Shown here: in pieces, positions 17,718-26,088 of the stretch
How positions within the stretch are numbered: position 1 is the first letter of the stretch
How the letters are laid out: each line of letters begins with the position of its first letter
Notes under the pieces: model-generated
Seen by the model: only the letters and a program-made list of their open reading frames with translations
Told to the model about the DNA's origin: nothing
Databases searched by the model: none
Translations under genes and position numbers: made by a program
Assembly: GCF_018736065.1 (NCBI RefSeq)
Contig: NZ_CP076130.1
Coordinates: 258,001 to 322,000, forward strand
Reading direction: 5' to 3'
DNA length: 64,000 nt
Source of the DNA: Flammeovirga kamogawensis
Lineage (GTDB): Bacteria > Bacteroidota > Bacteroidia > Cytophagales > Flammeovirgaceae

Positions 17718-19607
17718 TTAACTCTGCTGATAAATAAAGATCAATTCTTCCCAACCTCTTTTTAACAATTCGTCTTCAGATCCCAATTCTTCACACTTCA
17801 TTTTCATAGCTTCTTTTACTTTATTGTAGAATTTCCAACAAGTGTTAGGGCGCATATTTAACATTTCCGCGAGTTTGGAAGAGGGAATATTCCCTTTGTT
17901 TGCGTATACAATAAATAACAGAAGAAAAGCATTTCTAATAGGGAAATGAAGACGGTGAAATAATGTACCGTTTGTAGCAGATTCATTATAACTACATTTT
18001 TTACATCTTCTTGCTTCATGACCTTGTCCATTAGAATAATTATTACTTCCACATTTTTTACATGCAAATACATCGTTCCATTTTATTTTAGCTAAGTATT
18101 TATAACATGAGATATCATCTGGAAATAATTCTTCAAACTCTTCGAAGCTTACCTCTTTTAATAAAACACGGGCATTAGAGAGTTCAGAAACATCATCATG
18201 TAGTTGTTCGTTTTCGATGGTTAATTTAGTGTTCATCTTCTCAATAGTACGTCTATGGTCTGTAAGCATTTTGTTTACAACTTCTAGTTCTTCGTTTTTT
18301 CTAAAGATGATTTGTTTCTGATTTTCAACTTCTTGTGTTCTATCAATTACTTTTGTTTCAATAATTTTTTCTCTTTCCTTTAAATTTGAAATGATTTTTT
18401 GCTGTGCAGCATCTTTCTCATCTTTATACATTTTAAAACTTTGTACAAGACCCAACGTCATTAAAAACACATTGATTATAAGTCCGATATTAAAGGCATA
18501 AACATAAATTATACTATCTAAATAGAGGCCATATCCTCTTAAAACAAGGAAAATAACCCCTAATACTATAGTACTGTATCCACTAATAAAATAGTTCTGT
18601 TTAAACTTTTTAGTTTTTATTAAATACAGCATATAACCAAATACAATCAAAAAAGGGATAAGGTAGGTAGGTGCTTGCCATAAGAAATGATTAAAGTCCC
18701 CGAAAAGAATTAAGTAACCAATATTTATCAGAACACTTATCCATATCACTACATAAACTTTTCTATTATCTCGTCTAATTTTTAAAAATGATGAGGTGAA
18801 CAAAACTACAGAAGTCATAAATAGAGCAGGTGTAATCTGTTTTATTACATAGTTAACGTAAGGCGTATCTCCCCAAATGTATTGAAAACCTAAATTATCT
18901 TCTGATAGTCCAACTAGCATGCTACTAATTACAAAAAATGACAAGTAGATAGGATAGCGTTCTTTTAAAGTAACAAACAGCATTAAGTTATATATTGCAA
19001 GCAAGAAAAGCATACCATAAAAACCACCAAGTAAGATATACTCTCCATTGGCATATCGAATAAAAGATTTATCGTCTTTTACTTTATAAAGAAAGATGTT
19101 CTTAAAACGTGTTTTGTATTTTAGATAAATAGTAAGTGAGCTATTTTTATTAACAGGAGGGAGGGGAACAACAATGTTTTTATGCGAATACAATCTTTTA
19201 TTGAATTCGATATCGTAACCACCTCTTGCTACTGCATTTATTTCATTATTATCTATTTGTTGGTACGCTTCAAAATAATCAATATGACTATCTAAAACTT
19301 CTAAGAGTAGGTGACCTTGATAGAGCCTTTCTCCACTAAAAGCCATTTTAACCCAATAGGTTTGTGCAGTATCTTGAATAATATAAAAATGGTCATCTTC
19401 AGCGTACACATTAAAAGGGTTATGAAGAGATAAAATTTCATTTAAAGAAAATGAATTACTGTTATCTTCAAAAATACCTATGGATTGCTTCTCAATAATC
19501 TGATCAATATTAGTTGTATTTAAAAAAACAGTGTCGAGTAGATGTGTTTTACCATTTACATTTATGCTAAAAAAAAGTAATGTGAATAGAAGAATTCTAA
19601 AGAGCAT
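17718..19607 (-). CDS. 7TM-DISM membrane receptor fused to an IS1595-transposase-type zinc ribbon and HTH
   Basis: 629-aa protein (start ATG 19607, giving signal peptide MLFRILLFTLLFFSINVNG; an in-frame start at 19706 would add 33 residues). Order: extracellular DISMED2-like beta-sandwich (about 30-180), seven transmembrane helices of the 7TMR-DISM type (about 190-395), a long coiled coil (about 400-490), then a C-terminal zinc ribbon with C516-x2-C519 and C535-x2-C538, and a helix-turn-helix region (about 550-600). The ribbon-HTH part, with GTLFHRLHFPIRNAFLLLF and SKLAEMLNMRPNTCWKF, is that of the N-terminus of IS1595-family transposases, but no DDE nuclease domain follows. In known 7TM-DISM proteins the output is a histidine kinase or cyclase; here it looks like a DNA-binding domain held at the membrane. 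Strong for the domains, weak for function. Confidence 0.85.
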   Translation of the reverse strand: MLFRILLFTLLFFSINVNGKTHLLDTVFLNTTNIDQIIEKQSIGIFEDNSNSFSLNEILSLHNPFNVYAEDDHFYIIQDTAQTYWVKMAFSGERLYQGHLLLEVLDSHIDYFEAYQQIDNNEINAVARGGYDIEFNKRLYSHKNIVVPLPPVNKNSSLTIYLKYKTRFKNIFLYKVKDDKSFIRYANGEYILLGGFYGMLFLLAIYNLMLFVTLKERYPIYLSFFVISSMLVGLSEDNLGFQYIWGDTPYVNYVIKQITPALFMTSVVLFTSSFLKIRRDNRKVYVVIWISVLINIGYLILFGDFNHFLWQAPTYLIPFLIVFGYMLYLIKTKKFKQNYFISGYSTIVLGVIFLVLRGYGLYLDSIIYVYAFNIGLIINVFLMTLGLVQSFKMYKDEKDAAQQKIISNLKEREKIIETKVIDRTQEVENQKQIIFRKNEELEVVNKMLTDHRRTIEKMNTKLTIENEQLHDDVSELSNARVLLKEVSFEEFEELFPDDISCYKYLAKIKWNDVFACKKCGSNNYSNGQGHEARRCKKCSYNESATNGTLFHRLHFPIRNAFLLLFIVYANKGNIPSSKLAEMLNMRPNTCWKFYNKVKEAMKMKCEELGSEDELLKRGWEELIFIYQQS

Positions 19608-20148
19608 TTTTCTAAAATAGTTAGTGATAAATTGATTAAGAAAGATTGATAATGGGGATAATAAACTGTCTATTTTGCGATAATTGTTGTTTAGATAGCT
19701 TTCCAAATTTTCACTTTATTATTTGTTCTTGACTACCTGTATCCAATTAATAAATATTTCTATTGACGAAAAAATTTTATGAATGAAATTCTTTAAGAAG
19801 TCGGATTTTTCGACATTTTTTATGTTAAATATATATTTTTTAAATGGATAATTTTCAATTCCATTCTATTCTCTTTAAGGTGTTAAGTAATTGATGATTA
19901 GAATTTTAACGACTGTTTTTTAAGTGATAAATTGATTTTTTAGTGAATTTTGAACCTGATGAATGTTGGTATATGTTTGTTTTCAGAAGTTGCTAGCCGA
20001 AAGGCAAATCGCTATTATCTAGATAAAAATTATGAATTGAAATTGATGAGCAAACTATAGAAGGTGCACACGAACATAGTAAGCAAACCAATAACTATTG
20101 AACTTTCAGTCTCTCTAAAAAAGCAGACTAATTATTACTTAACTAAAT
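19608..20148 (+). promoter_or_regulatory. Divergent intergenic region with consensus promoter for the GH81 gene
   Basis: TTTG (19949-19952), 19 bases, then TATGTTTG (19972-19979): an exact match to the Bacteroidota consensus. This gives the GH81 transcript a 5' untranslated leader of about 160 bases. The rest of this gap is AT-rich; no other gene is seen. Confidence 0.65.
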
Positions 20149-23100
20149 ATGAGAAAAACAACTACGACTAGTATGGCTTTTCTATGGACAATTTTGTCTG
20201 TAATAGCCATTCAATTTACCAGTTTTGCACAAGTTACAGGAGTAGGTAGCGGAAGCTATACAACTACTTTTCCAGGTACAGATGCAGCAGGTAGAAATTC
20301 ATACCCATCAGGTACACCACAATTAAGTGAAAATGCTTTAGGAAACCCTGTACCTACAAACGATTGGTGGTCTACTTTAATCCAAAGTGACCATGCATCG
20401 AATTTATTTAATTACCCATTGGCAATGAAAACAACCAATGACGGTTTAGTAATGAGTTACATCTCTTGGGGTGTTTTTGATGATTTATTACCAATCGTTG
20501 TAGGTGTCGACGGGTTGAATGCATCAAGAACAACTGTAGCAGACCATAGTGATTGGACAGTTACAATGGACTGGAATGATGATACCCATCATTTTCAAGC
20601 CACTTCTGGTATAGGAATGCCTTTTGTTTATTTCAATAAATTAGATGCAGATGTTGCACAGGTAACTGTAAACCACGGTACTGTAACTGTAGCAGATGAG
20701 GTGCTTATTATTGAAAATGCAAGAGAAGGTGCTGACTTTGTTGTTTATGCGCCAGTTGGTAGTGAGTGGACTTTAGAAGGTACAACTTACTCATCAACTT
20801 TAAATGGTGAAAACTATTGGTCAATGGTAATGTTGCCCTTAACTACTTCAGATGTAAGCACTGAAGCAATTAATTATCAAAAATATGCTTATGTATTTCC
20901 TATTAATACTACCGCTAATTGGGAATATAATGAATCAACTTCTGTTCTAACTACAACATTTTCTGTAGAAACGGAGATTAAAGAAGGATCTTCTGAAGAT
21001 ATGCTTATTGGGTTACTTCCACATCAATGGGCTAATCTATCATCAACTTCAACACAACCATCAATTATTAACTACACATCTGTAAGAGGGGAACTCAAGA
21101 TGATTGAGGGAACCTCTTTTGTAGTTGAAAATACGTTCCATGGTATATTACCAACGCTTCCTTATTTAAGCAATTATAGTGATGGATTTGATGTATCAGC
21201 TTTAAATGATAAAGTAACGGCTTTAGAAAACGAGGGGTTAGCTTCTTGGACGGATTCTTACAATGAAGGACAAGCAATGAACCGCTTGATTCAAACGGCA
21301 AGAATAGCAGATTTATCGGGCAATACTGAGACAAGAGATAAATTGGTGGCAACTGTAAAAGAACGTTTAGAAGATTGGTTAACTGCCGAAGAAGGTGAGG
21401 TTGCTTTCTTGTTTTATTACAATGAAGATTGGTCAGCATTATTAGGTTACCCTGCCGGTCATGGTCAAGATTCTAATTTAAATGATCACCATTTCCATTG
21501 GGGGTATTTTATTCATGCAGCTGCATTTATGGAACAGTATGAGCCAGGTTGGGCAGACCAATACGGAGATATGATAAACTTATTAGTAAGAGATGCCTCT
21601 TCTCCTAATAGAGATGATGATACCTTCCCTTATTTAAGAAGTTTTAGTCCGTATGCAGGACACTGTTGGGCCAATGGTTTTGCCTCTTTCCCACAAGGAA
21701 ATGATCAAGAATCGACTTCTGAAAGTATGCAATTTCACTCTGCTTTAATTCACTGGGGAACGGTTACAGGCAATGATGAAATTAGAGATTTAGGTATTTA
21801 CTTATACACTACAGAACAAACTGCTGTCGAAGAATATTGGTTCGATGTGAACGAGCGCAATTTTAAAGATGATCAACCTTATAGTGTAGTATCTAGGGTT
21901 TGGGGAAATAGTTATGATAATGGAACATTCTGGACAGCAGATATTGCTGCTTCTTACAATATAGAATTGTATCCAATTCATGGCGGTGCATTGTATTTAG
22001 GACATAATACGGAATACGTAGATAAATTATGGAATGAAATGTCTGTAAATACAGATGTATTGAACAAAATAGATAACCCAAATCTATGGTACGATGTGAT
22101 GTGGAGCTACTTATCTTTTACAGATCCTGCTAAAGCAATTGATTTGTATAACGACTATCCAGAAAGAGCAATGAAATTTGGTGTGGCAGATGCACAAACT
22201 TATTACTGGTTGCATAATATGAATGCAATGGGTAAAGTAGATGCAACTATTACTGCTGATTACCCAATGGGTGTTGCTTTTAATAAAGAAGGAGAGATGA
22301 CGTATGTGGCTCATAATTATGGAGATACAGAGATTACGGTTTCTTTTTCTGATGGATACGAACTAACTGTACCCGCAAATTCTACGGCAACAAACAGAGA
22401 TGTTGATATAGAAGGTATTTTAGTGAGCAGTTTTGATCAGGCGGCTGTAAATGGAGCTGTTGATTTAACAGTAACTGTTGATGGGGCTTCTCCTACAAAA
22501 GTAGAATTCTTTGATAAAGGACAACTTTTAGGAGAAGTGACTTCATCACCATATACGTTTAAAGCGGAAAATTTAGCTGCAGGTGAGCATCAATTTTATT
22601 CAAAAATCTATAATGAAGATGTGTTTGGTGTTTCTAATATTGTATCAGTTATTGTTGGTTTGCAAGTGCCTTTTGGAGGAGAGCCAACTGTAATTCCAGG
22701 TGCTTTAGAAGCAGGTAATTTCGATACCTTCGAAGGAGGTTTAGGTCAGGGTGTAACATATAGTGATCAGTCTGCTTTTAATGAAGGAGACTTCCGTAAA
22801 GAGGAATATGTAGACAATGTGTATGATGAAGCAGAAGGAGCCACTGTAGGATGGACTGCAGCTGGAGAATGGATGGAATATACCGTAGAAGTAGAAACAT
22901 CTGGTTTATATACTGTTTCATTTAGATACGCTTCTGATAATGCAACAGGCGGACCTTTCTCTATCTCTTCTGATGGCGAAGTTGTAGCCGATGCTATTTC
23001 GGTAACGTCTACTGGCGGATGGGGCACATGGGCAACAGGTGTTGTAGAAAATGTTCCATTGTCAGCAGGAAAACACATTTTAAGAGTAGCTTTTGGTGAT

Positions 23101-26088
23101 GGAGGTTTCAACTTAGGTCGCTTAACTTTTGAGCTTTCTGGAGATTTACCATACAGTCAGCCAGTGGCCGATGCAGGAGACGATTTAATTATCGATTTAT
23201 CTGGCGATGATACCATTTTAGATGCATCAAACAGTACAGATCCTGATAATGGAACACTGACGTATGCGTGGTCGCAAGTATATGGCCCGAGTGTAATTGA
23301 ATTTTCGGATGCATCAAGCGCAATGCCAACGATCTACGCTTTAGTAGAGGGGACATATTTAGTGGAGTTAACAGTAAGTAATGGAGAATACACAAGTACA
23401 GATGAGTTGCTTTTAGTAGCTACTACAGACGGAACAATTGCTCCATCAGTTAGTTTAACTGCACCAATGGATCAAGCATCATTTTATATTAATAAAGATA
23501 TAACACTTTCTGCTACAGCCACTGATTTAGACGGTACTATTGCACAAGTTGAATTCTTTGTTGATGATGAACCTGTAGGAACTGTAACTGAAGCACCTTT
23601 TAATGTAGTTTGGGTTGCATCTGAAGCAAAAGAATATACAATCCATGCAGTAGCAACAGATAATGATGGAAAATCTACAACCGCTCCATCTGTTCGTATT
23701 GTTACAGAAGATGCACCTCCATGTAGAGGTACTAGCGAAAACGGAGATTATGACTTTGAGTTTTCTGATGCAGCAGAGAATCCTACTTTAACATTCATTC
23801 CAAACCAAACAGGAATGGGTTCACCAGTATGTATTTTATACTTATCAGTTAATGGAGGTGGCTATGGTGGTTATTCTGCAACAGCAGGAGAACCATTCCA
23901 AGTTAATGCAGCAAATGGTAGCACAATATCGTTTTATTATACCTATACGCATCCAGCTGGTGGAGAAAGAAATACATCTGCAAATCCAAATCATTATATA
24001 GTTGGATCTTGCGAAAACATAGTTGTAGATACCACAATTCCTACTGTAGCGATTACCTCTCCAGAAAAAGGAGCATTTATAAAAGAAGGTACAGCACTTA
24101 CAATTACTGCATCTGCTAATGATGAAGACGGTACAGTTGCACAAGTAGAATTCTTTGCAAATGGTAATTCTATTGGAGTAGTAACAGAAGCACCTTATGA
24201 AGTTGAATGGACTTTGTTGAAAGGAAAAGTTTCCTTGACGGCTCAAGCAACTGATAATGATGATAAAGTTGGTACTTCTATGGAAGTTAATATTGAAGGA
24301 ACTTCGGCTTCAGCTTGTTATGAAGGTGTGGCAGCTAATGGCGATTTTGCTTACCTTTTCTCAGAAGATTTAGAGAACCCTACATTAACCTTACAACCAC
24401 AAATTAGTGGTGCAGGAAGTAGCGTTTTAATTCTTTATTATTCTGTAGATGGTGTAGATAAAGGAGGCCACAATGCAACGCCAAATGAGCCTTTCCAATT
24501 AACAGCGGCAGAAGGTAGTACAATTACTTTCTATTATACCTATTCTCATCCGGAAGGAGGAGAGCGTAACACAATTGAAGATATAAAATCTTTTGAGGTG
24601 GGAAGTTGTAATGATAGTGATGATGACGATGTTGTTGACCCAGAACCAAATGAGTTGTCAGTTTCTATACAAGCTCCAGTAAATGATAAAGTATTAATTT
24701 ATGGTAAGGAAGTAGCTATTACTGTAACTACTGCAACTGAAAATGATGCCATTAAGCAAGTTGAATTTTTTGCTAATGATGTTTCAATAGGTATCGAAAC
24801 GGAAGCACCTTATACATTGTTATGGTCTACAGACGTAAATGGAGCAGTTGCACTAAAAGCAATTGTGAGTGATATTAATGATAATACTGCTACTTCTGAA
24901 GTTGTAAACTTAACAGTTGGTAAAGTAACGCCTTATGGAGGAACAGCTTCTGCTATTCCTGGTGTAATTGAAGCGGCAAATTATGATGTATTTGAATTAG
25001 GAAATGGACAAGGAGTTACTTATTTCGATACTTCAGAAAATAACGAAGGAGATTACAGAACAGGAGAATTTGTAGATGCTGTTTTAGGTGATGAAGAAGG
25101 AGCGACCATCGGATGGGTTGCACCTGGAGAATGGTTAAGATATACAGTTGATGTTGCCACAAATGGATTGTATTCTTTTGAGTTTAGATATGCATCAGAC
25201 AACCAAGTAAGCAGAGGACCATTTTATCTTGAAGTAGATGGCTACAAGGTGACAGGTGATATTGATGTAAGTACAACTGCAGGATGGAATAGTTGGGAAA
25301 GTAAAAAAGTTTCTGACATAGAGCTTTCAGCAGGTGAACACGTATTAAGAGTAGTATTTATTGGAGGTGAATTTAACGTAGGTAAAATGACGTTCACTTT
25401 AGATGAAGAAATCGTAAACCTATCGCCATCAGTTGCTTTAACTACAGCATCAGAAGCCACTTCTTTTGAAGTAGGAACAAGCATTATACTTAATGTAGAT
25501 GCAACAGATGCAGATGGTACAATCGAAAAGGTAGAATACTTTATTGATAATGTATCAATGGGAGAATTTACATCAGCGCCTTATTCATTATCTTGGTTAG
25601 CAGAGGAAGTGGGAACTTTTGAAGTTACTGCAGTTGCTACAGATAATCAAGGAGAAACATCTGAATCATCTTTAACAATAGAGATTACAGCTATTGCTGG
25701 TGATGACACAGATGGAGATGATGATACAGATAATGACGATACGGACGAGGATTCAGATAATGACGATGACACGGATAATCCTGATGATTCTGACGATGAT
25801 ACTGATGAAGATGATATAGATAATGATAACGGAGAAGTGACCGCAATTGATGCGAATGAAGTTATAGTATCGTATTATCCAAACCCAGTAACTCACTCGT
25901 TAACGATTGACCTTCCTGAATTAAATCAAAAGGTTGTTGTATTTAATTTAGACGGAAAAGTAATTGGTACTTTTGAATTAGGACAAGGTAAATCAGTTAT
26001 TGATATGTCAATGTATCAATCTGGAATTTACTTTATCAATATCCAAAGTGATCAATACACAACGCAATTAAAAATTGTAAAACAATAA
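20149..26088 (+). CDS. Modular secreted GH81 endo-beta-1,3-glucanase with CBM6 and CBM56-like modules, T9SS-sorted
   Basis: 1979-aa laminarinase-type enzyme that should cleave beta-1,3-glucan outside the cell. Modules: signal peptide (about 1-28); GH81 catalytic domain (about 35-745) with the NDHHFHWGYF motif (D446, probable acid) and E521-S-T-S-E525 (probable base region); Ig-like (753-839); CBM6 (842-995); PKD (1005-1095); Ig-like (1099-1187); CBM56-like beta-1,3-glucan-binding module (1192-1288); Ig-like (1299-1384); second CBM56-like (1390-1487); Ig-like (1503-1591); second CBM6 (1594-1751); Ig-like (1760-1850); an almost pure Asp/Thr/Asn linker (1851-1899); and a type A T9SS sorting domain (YYPNPVTHSL..., 1905-1979). 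Two different glucan-binding families in duplicate suggest tight attachment to insoluble glucan. It has its own promoter and terminator. Confidence 0.92.
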   Translation: MRKTTTTSMAFLWTILSVIAIQFTSFAQVTGVGSGSYTTTFPGTDAAGRNSYPSGTPQLSENALGNPVPTNDWWSTLIQSDHASNLFNYPLAMKTTNDGLVMSYISWGVFDDLLPIVVGVDGLNASRTTVADHSDWTVTMDWNDDTHHFQATSGIGMPFVYFNKLDADVAQVTVNHGTVTVADEVLIIENAREGADFVVYAPVGSEWTLEGTTYSSTLNGENYWSMVMLPLTTSDVSTEAINYQKYAYVFPINTTANWEYNESTSVLTTTFSVETEIKEGSSEDMLIGLLPHQWANLSSTSTQPSIINYTSVRGELKMIEGTSFVVENTFHGILPTLPYLSNYSDGFDVSALNDKVTALENEGLASWTDSYNEGQAMNRLIQTARIADLSGNTETRDKLVATVKERLEDWLTAEEGEVAFLFYYNEDWSALLGYPAGHGQDSNLNDHHFHWGYFIHAAAFMEQYEPGWADQYGDMINLLVRDASSPNRDDDTFPYLRSFSPYAGHCWANGFASFPQGNDQESTSESMQFHSALIHWGTVTGNDEIRDLGIYLYTTEQTAVEEYWFDVNERNFKDDQPYSVVSRVWGNSYDNGTFWTADIAASYNIELYPIHGGALYLGHNTEYVDKLWNEMSVNTDVLNKIDNPNLWYDVMWSYLSFTDPAKAIDLYNDYPERAMKFGVADAQTYYWLHNMNAMGKVDATITADYPMGVAFNKEGEMTYVAHNYGDTEITVSFSDGYELTVPANSTATNRDVDIEGILVSSFDQAAVNGAVDLTVTVDGASPTKVEFFDKGQLLGEVTSSPYTFKAENLAAGEHQFYSKIYNEDVFGVSNIVSVIVGLQVPFGGEPTVIPGALEAGNFDTFEGGLGQGVTYSDQSAFNEGDFRKEEYVDNVYDEAEGATVGWTAAGEWMEYTVEVETSGLYTVSFRYASDNATGGPFSISSDGEVVADAISVTSTGGWGTWATGVVENVPLSAGKHILRVAFGDGGFNLGRLTFELSGDLPYSQPVADAGDDLIIDLSGDDTILDASNSTDPDNGTLTYAWSQVYGPSVIEFSDASSAMPTIYALVEGTYLVELTVSNGEYTSTDELLLVATTDGTIAPSVSLTAPMDQASFYINKDITLSATATDLDGTIAQVEFFVDDEPVGTVTEAPFNVVWVASEAKEYTIHAVATDNDGKSTTAPSVRIVTEDAPPCRGTSENGDYDFEFSDAAENPTLTFIPNQTGMGSPVCILYLSVNGGGYGGYSATAGEPFQVNAANGSTISFYYTYTHPAGGERNTSANPNHYIVGSCENIVVDTTIPTVAITSPEKGAFIKEGTALTITASANDEDGTVAQVEFFANGNSIGVVTEAPYEVEWTLLKGKVSLTAQATDNDDKVGTSMEVNIEGTSASACYEGVAANGDFAYLFSEDLENPTLTLQPQISGAGSSVLILYYSVDGVDKGGHNATPNEPFQLTAAEGSTITFYYTYSHPEGGERNTIEDIKSFEVGSCNDSDDDDVVDPEPNELSVSIQAPVNDKVLIYGKEVAITVTTATENDAIKQVEFFANDVSIGIETEAPYTLLWSTDVNGAVALKAIVSDINDNTATSEVVNLTVGKVTPYGGTASAIPGVIEAANYDVFELGNGQGVTYFDTSENNEGDYRTGEFVDAVLGDEEGATIGWVAPGEWLRYTVDVATNGLYSFEFRYASDNQVSRGPFYLEVDGYKVTGDIDVSTTAGWNSWESKKVSDIELSAGEHVLRVVFIGGEFNVGKMTFTLDEEIVNLSPSVALTTASEATSFEVGTSIILNVDATDADGTIEKVEYFIDNVSMGEFTSAPYSLSWLAEEVGTFEVTAVATDNQGETSESSLTIEITAIAGDDTDGDDDTDNDDTDEDSDNDDDTDNPDDSDDDTDEDDIDNDNGEVTAIDANEVIVSYYPNPVTHSLTIDLPELNQKVVVFNLDGKVIGTFELGQGKSVIDMSMYQSGIYFINIQSDQYTTQLKIVKQ
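25700..25845 (+). repeat. Asp-rich linker-coding repeat (GAT/GAC-rich)
   Basis: Degenerate GAT-GAC-ACN-GAT repeats encode roughly 48 residues, mostly Asp, Asn and Thr, between the last Ig-like domain and the T9SS signal of the GH81 protein. It may bind calcium or act as a spacer, and is likely to vary in length between strains. Confidence 0.75.

Follow-up and report, generated by a model that had tools for sequence, protein, structure and literature searches.

The gene at positions 17,718-19,607 of this stretch of the Flammeovirga kamogawensis genome very probably encodes a one-component transcription regulator that is anchored in the membrane and controls genes for glycan use. DNA binding, zinc, the ligand and the sign of regulation are inferred. 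The domain order, the kinship with transposases, purifying selection, the linkage to SusC/SusD or glucanase genes and the pairs of direct-repeat sites that the linked promoter regions contain were computed.

The receptor and its family

The window (the whole stretch of 64,000 nucleotides that was analysed) contains on its reverse strand an open reading frame for a protein of 629 amino acids. From the N-terminus to the C-terminus, the protein has a signal-peptide-like start, DISMED2, 7TM and a long helix, and beyond this helix an IS1595-type zinc ribbon and a helix-turn-helix (HTH).

17718..19607, minus strand: gene for the 7TM-DISM receptor with a C-terminal transposase-type ribbon-HTH (translation and Pfam)
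19548..19607, minus strand: signal-peptide-like N-terminus, residues 1-20 (sequence reading only; helix 2-17 in the AlphaFold2 model)
19101..19487, minus strand: 7TMR-DISMED2 periplasmic sensor, residues 41-169 (Pfam PF07696, 1.6e-13)
18444..19043, minus strand: 7TMR-DISM_7TM membrane domain, residues 189-388 (Pfam PF07695, 4.1e-31; model helices)
18210..18512, minus strand: last TM helix leading into a coiled-coil-like stalk, one continuous helix 366-466 (AlphaFold2)
17988..18122, minus strand: zinc ribbon, residues 496-540, with C516, C519, C535 and C538 (Pfam PF12760, above cut-off)
17784..17939, minus strand: HTH, residues 557-608 (AlphaFold2 models of the whole protein and of the isolated domain; covered by the transposase match)
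17736..17756, minus strand: conserved GWxxLIL-type C-terminal tail, residues 618-624 (tail conservation among receptors)

In Pfam, the 7TMR-DISM_7TM match scored 109 bits (cut-off 29), the DISMED2 match 51.2 bits (cut-off 22) and the Zn_ribbon_IS1595 match 29.4 bits (7.7e-7; curated cut-off 25.4). Pfam detected no DDE_Tnp_IS1595 nuclease, the frame stopping past the HTH, and no histidine kinase, receiver or AraC domain. AlphaFold2, given an alignment of 75 family members, modelled the protein with a mean pLDDT of 88.7 and placed ribbon strands before an HTH of three helices (557-569, 576-583 and 587-608). The ribbon-HTH modelled alone reached a pLDDT of 89.2 and a pTM of 0.81. A sequence-only reading of this DNA had described DISMED2, 7TM, a coiled coil, the four ribbon cysteines and an HTH without the nuclease part. 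Pfam confirmed its DISMED2, 7TM and ribbon, and the cysteines are exactly those that it had named. Its coiled coil corresponds to the unbroken continuation of the last TM helix, and its HTH and the missing nuclease were borne out by AlphaFold2 and Pfam, respectively. The structure prediction of the ribbon that it had proposed gave the strands and the three-helix HTH described above. Foldseek searches against the PDB returned nothing at E <= 0.001; the whole model showed only a weak likeness (E >0.003) to beta-sandwich domains of GH2/GH38 enzymes and to CBM27/CBM61. Compared with the orthologue of a second Flammeovirga genome (G002), the gene has a dN/dS of 0.042 overall and 0.030 in the ribbon-HTH; the stalk (residues 391-485) has the lowest value of the four segments compared, 0.019. 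Synonymous sites are near saturation in this comparison (pS 0.53-0.58).

The genome encodes three receptors of this architecture; the two paralogues are 45% and 43% identical to the window copy and keep the same domain order. The profile search for this order that the sequence-only reading had suggested found it in many Bacteroidota receptors, across Cytophagales, Sphingobacteriales and Chitinophagales. Matches to the C-terminal domain came from 27 of 58 relatives, from 187 of 391 genomes in a search of the order and from 61 of 392 in a search of the phylum; these counts take in transposases, and the order and phylum searches scored no more than ten candidates per genome. Among the matches listed in the order search, 145 of 150 lie in open frames of at least 590 aa, in 107 genomes; such frames occurred in 12 of 392 genomes in the phylum search. 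The best 80 of 135 loci fetched include Flammeovirga, Flexithrix, Pedobacter, Mucilaginibacter, Chitinophaga, Belliella, Fulvivirga and Roseivirga. Pfam (E 1e-3) recognized 7TMR-DISM_7TM in 74, DISMED2 in 73 and Zn_ribbon_IS1595 in 55 of 75 aligned receptors, and listed no DDE_Tnp_IS1595, kinase, receiver or AraC domain in them. All four ribbon cysteines are invariant in the 75, from which zinc binding is inferred. The invariance of C535 and C538 is partly selected for, because 42 of these receptors come from loci fetched by peptide patterns, one of which contained RC[TK]KC; the other 33 are unaffected. A W-x2-hydrophobic-hydrophobic motif lies within the last 30 residues of 77 of 91 receptors.

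The ribbon-HTH was also observed in other settings. It caps HTCS-type Reg_prop/Y_Y_Y sensors at L057:5506-8712 and L165:3903-6896, and L057, which is among the 75 aligned proteins, sits immediately before SusC-SusD. Without a large sensor or nuclease, it occurs in L047:7901-8611 (236 aa, a likely TM segment) and L147:1194-1607 (137 aa, no TM segment).

Cleavage of the head from the membrane, to give a soluble factor instead of a tethered one, is possible in principle but unlikely. The existence of L147 and L047 as small head relatives would fit such a soluble form, and residues 462-484, modelled with pLDDT <50, could be a cleavable linker. However, the model predicts one unbroken helix from the last TM segment up to residue 466, and the stalk is the segment with the lowest dN/dS. 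We therefore prefer a head that stays tethered to the membrane.

Glycan loci and paired direct-repeat sites

The receptor genes are linked to SusC genes. SusC is the next co-directional gene for 49 of 110 receptors, compared with 7 of the 996 other genes at these loci; with near-duplicates removed, the counts are 40 of 88 and 5 of 717 (Fisher p 2e-37). SusC or SusD lies within three genes of 52 of the 88 non-redundant receptors, as judged with SusC and SusD models each built from nine neighbours at receptor loci. About half of the receptors have no adjoining SusC. Among the latter is the window receptor, which is divergent from a GH81 gene whose product carries CBM6 and CBM35. Of its paralogues, L045 sits upstream of SusC-SusD, and L046 precedes genes that are ribokinase-like (our reading), sugar-transporter-like and ADP-ribosylglycohydrolase-like.

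Two direct-repeat sites were found in 37 of the 49 receptor-SusC spacers (31 spacers with one motif, five with another, and L113). The repeated sites were first spotted by eye in a spacer alignment, and the motif learner was seeded with them. The motif TTtAAgCGTATCAa was learned for 31 spacers chosen as the GCGTATCA type, 29 of them of the Sphingobacteriales/Chitinophagales type and two (L176 and L177) of the window's order. With 60-100 bp allowed and relatives with at least about 75% domain identity left out of training, the best pair was spaced by 77-79 bp in 18 of them and by 88-92 bp in 13; 29 of the 31 reached p <= 0.01 and 30 reached p <= 0.05 against 100 shuffles. The motif TTTTTTAAGTGATA was learned for five spacers of Flammeovirga and two close genera; the pair lies at 80 or 81 bp in all five, on which the model itself was trained. 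In L113 the pair is at 79 bp (p 0.01). A motif-free direct-repeat test gave p < 0.05 for only 7 of 50 spacers; this test is too blunt for AT-rich DNA, and the motif model with relatives left out was used instead.

Twelve of the 49 spacers have no clear pair with either motif. Five of these have weak matches (p <= 0.02) at other spacings (L056 with its duplicate L069, L063, L129, L142 and L144), and nothing firm was found with either motif in L057, L134, L139, L140, L172 and L173. An AATCAG/TTATCAG-type element was also seen to recur between the sites and past site 2 (L111, L116, L122, L176 and others). ATCAG or TTCAG occurs within 46 bp before site 2 in 12 of 25 spacers, and ATCAG, TTCAG or TACAG past site 2 in 13 of 23, both without a shuffled control. 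Judged from these sequences alone, each operator half may be a longer composite.

In the window, a pair of sites faces the GH81 gene.

19836..19849, plus strand: predicted operator site 1, TTTTTTAAATGGAT, which faces the GH81 gene and lies 80 bp before site 2
19916..19929, plus strand: predicted operator site 2, exact TTTTTTAAGTGATA, 80 bp from site 1
20149..26088, plus strand: predicted target, gene for a 1979-aa GH81 (endo-beta-1,3-glucanase-type) protein with CBM6/CBM35 and a secretion-system sorting tail (Pfam)

Exact TTTTTTAAGTGATA occurs eight times in the 6.97-Mb genome, site 2 being one of the eight. Pairs of TTTAARTG-N-TTTAAGTG at spacings of 65-95 number nine in this genome, compared with four in a reversed control. 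Each of the three receptor loci has one pair, at exactly 80 bp, and none of the other six pairs is at 80. Before this search, L045 had been a training locus and the window pair had been seen by eye; the pair of L046 had not been seen. Over 15 relatives, the same pattern gave 38 pairs against 25 in the reversed control, which is little above background. Elsewhere in the window's genome, a 77-bp pair (L212:5754-5838) precedes a SusC-SusD operon with no receptor in the 8.5 kb inspected, and this operon is a candidate trans target.

GH81 genes are present in all nine genomes of the genus, 11 genes in total. Nine of the 11 have a pair spaced by 78-81 bp with one mismatch or none, whereas 200 shuffles gave a mean of 0.04 and never more than 1. 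These are not nine independent events, because GH81 upstream regions share descent. The two genes without a pair are second copies, one in G000 and one in G002, and each keeps one exact TTTAAGTG. In three genomes (G003, G004 and G007), pairs at 79-81 bp precede GH81 genes with no receptor in the 8.7-8.8 kb inspected. An 80-bp pair also precedes the gene of a 204-aa secreted-looking protein in G005, and another sits where a 239-aa frame begins in G001, perhaps by chance.

In 35 receptor genomes, CGTATCA pairs number 68, compared with 18 in a reversed control. Of the 68, 29 are spaced by 77-79 or 90-92 bp, where 13 are expected (p 9e-6); these bins were named only after the distribution had been seen. 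With 11 training loci removed, 18 of 57 pairs fall in the favoured bins (11 expected, p 0.019). No preference was found in 198 genomes of the phylum, a few of which have receptors (22 of 116 pairs, 22.5 expected). The pattern also led to 20 further places, 15 of them intergenic, 10 before SusC and six with a receptor directly upstream. At L195 the receptor gene is the second downstream, after a GH5/CBM6 gene; L198 and L199 precede GH30 genes, and L202 is the already known locus L104. The remaining five lie inside frames, though the frame at L205, which precedes SusC, has only 91 aa.

The paired sites could instead be bound by another regulator. In that case the receptor would be real and would signal at glycan loci, and its ribbon-HTH would contact RNA polymerase or another protein. 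The 12 spacers without a clear pair leave room for this, as does the weak resemblance of the ribbon segment to RPB9-type ribbons (E 0.3-0.6) and ribosomal zinc ribbons, none of it significant. We consider it somewhat less likely even than cleavage of the head. Conservation extends to the HTH along with the ribbon; the pair, where found, sits between receptor and SusC; the search with a DNA pattern led to further receptor genes; and the spacing preference is absent from the phylum sample. The SusC adjacency and the paired sites support the membrane-bound one-component transcription factor that the sequence-only reading had put forward, without binding data. In place of its picture, in which two closely paired heads read a single site, the target probably consists of two direct repeats with a spacing of about 80 bp.

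Kinship of the head with IS1595 transposases

The match of the C-terminal domain covers the ribbon and HTH of IS1595-type transposases. In a tree built by a quick method from 116 domains (143 columns), the receptors are nested inside the transposases, in line with the kinship suggested earlier, with weak support at the key fork. The main receptor fork holds 94 rows (SH-aLRT 81), namely 91 of receptor length, two shorter frames and a receptor fragment at a contig edge (L118). Transposases lie outside it, including L145, L146 and L184, which carry DDE_Tnp_IS1595. The label 'receptor' needs four changes on the tree, of which the starred branches force three, compared with a shuffled mean of 23.0.

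The row of L114 (475 aa) also lies outside the main fork, beside L147. Its near-copy L117, omitted from the tree for redundancy, is a complete receptor of 640 aa with DISMED2 and 7TM, and its ribbon match is below the Pfam cut-off. L114 and L117 form a Sporocytophaga receptor lineage with its head outside the main fork, and because of this lineage we do not claim a single capture. The comparison of sequences supports descent of the head from IS1595-type elements, in one capture or a few, between which the tree does not decide.

Genome G216, the source of L145 and L146, has at least 10 IS1595-type copies, which are among the transposases closest to the receptor heads. Terminal inverted repeats around L145 and L146, sought for comparison with the operator, were not found. 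IS1595-type matches are common in the genus, 30 of them in G005 alone, and this abundance is the one point in favour of a functionless fusion, accidental or decaying, between a receptor gene and a transposon fragment, a notion that is hardly tenable given three paralogues, a wide distribution, invariant cysteines and the low dN/dS (0.03 in the domain).

A proposed mechanism and comparison with known regulators

We propose that a glycan breakdown product would bind the periplasmic DISMED2, directly or via a partner, and that the 7TM bundle would relay the signal along the long helix that continues its last TM helix. Through this helix the receptors may act as dimers or higher forms. Their zinc-ribbon-HTH heads, IS1595-derived and without the nuclease, would bind two sites on the same strand, spaced by about 80 bp (7.5 turns) or about 90 bp (8.5 turns). 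Two heads on one face of the DNA fit this, because the spacings of about 79-81 and 91 bp are roughly a helical turn apart. Binding is predicted to change, most likely to activate, transcription of the SusCD operon, or of the GH81 gene in the window; the window receptor gene would be a copy lodged beside its own GH81 target.

Three Bacteroidetes-specific types of glycan-locus regulator, SusR-like, HTCS and ECF sigma/anti-sigma, are named in PMC3878776. According to the same paper, SusR-like regulators (BT3705) are membrane proteins with a periplasmic sensor and a cytoplasmic C-terminal DNA-binding part, and their genes often adjoin SusC/SusD, with predicted direct repeats 67 or 77 bp apart. The receptor family has the same layout, including long-spaced direct repeats before SusC (37 of 49 spacers), whereas the window pair precedes GH81 and not SusC. 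SusR carries DUF6377. Pfam did not find this architecture in the window receptor or in the 75 members. A DUF6377 protein lies directly upstream of SusC at L190, with a sub-threshold TPR match, and we read it as SusR-like. Unlike the receptors, it has no DISMED2, 7TM or ribbon in Pfam. A head common to SusR and the receptors was considered and rejected since this protein lacks the ribbon (Pfam); no certified SusR sequence was compared. The sensor and, as far as tested, the DNA-binding domain differ from those of SusR-like regulators.

HTCS are also glycan-locus regulators of Bacteroidota with direct-repeat sites (PMC3878776). L057 and L165 resemble them in joining Reg_prop/Y_Y_Y sensors to the ribbon-HTH, but the receptors have no histidine kinase, receiver or AraC domain. 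With 7TMR-DISM receptors, the window receptor shares the DISMED2 and 7TM domains. Six other 7TM-family proteins of this genome end in SpoIIE (three), HATPase (two, both with a 7TM match below cut-off) or a LuxR-type HTH (one). The last (L006:1042-2628) joins 7TM-DISM to a LuxR/GerE-type HTH (5.4e-5; 23.2 bits, just below the cut-off of 23.5) and is likely another membrane-bound regulator; the earlier statement that 7TM-DISM proteins end in signalling enzymes is thus too narrow. A seventh weak 7TM match, L014, was rejected as a sigma-54 activator without a 7TM match on rescan. The N-terminal ribbon and HTH are common to IS1595/ISXO2-type transposases and the receptors, but the receptors lack DDE_Tnp_IS1595 and have a GWxxLIL-type tail, with a receptor in front. 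Signalling helices between a sensor and an HTH domain have been described, at low frequency (PMC1592074). In the open-licence literature, we found nothing that joins 7TMR-DISM with a zinc ribbon or with polysaccharide utilization, and nothing on IS1595 zinc-ribbon transcription factors or on zinc-ribbon transposases in polysaccharide utilization.

With less confidence than for the window protein itself, we think it probable that these receptors form a large, apparently undescribed class of Bacteroidota glycan-locus regulators, in which 7TM receptors gained an IS1595 head in one or a few captures and read two sites, 7.5 or 8.5 helical turns apart, from a membrane anchor. In this reading, the head came to serve as the part that reads the promoter at many SusCD and glucanase loci. 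The same reading holds the head to be modular, given its occurrence on Reg_prop/Y_Y_Y sensors and by itself. If this is true, the class would be a further type beside the three Bacteroidetes-specific ones, and a transposase head would have been domesticated for transcription control in bacteria. It would give testable operators and targets, such as GH81 in Flammeovirga, to many uncharacterised loci. With the fixed spacing, how a membrane-held protein reads two distant sites would become directly testable.
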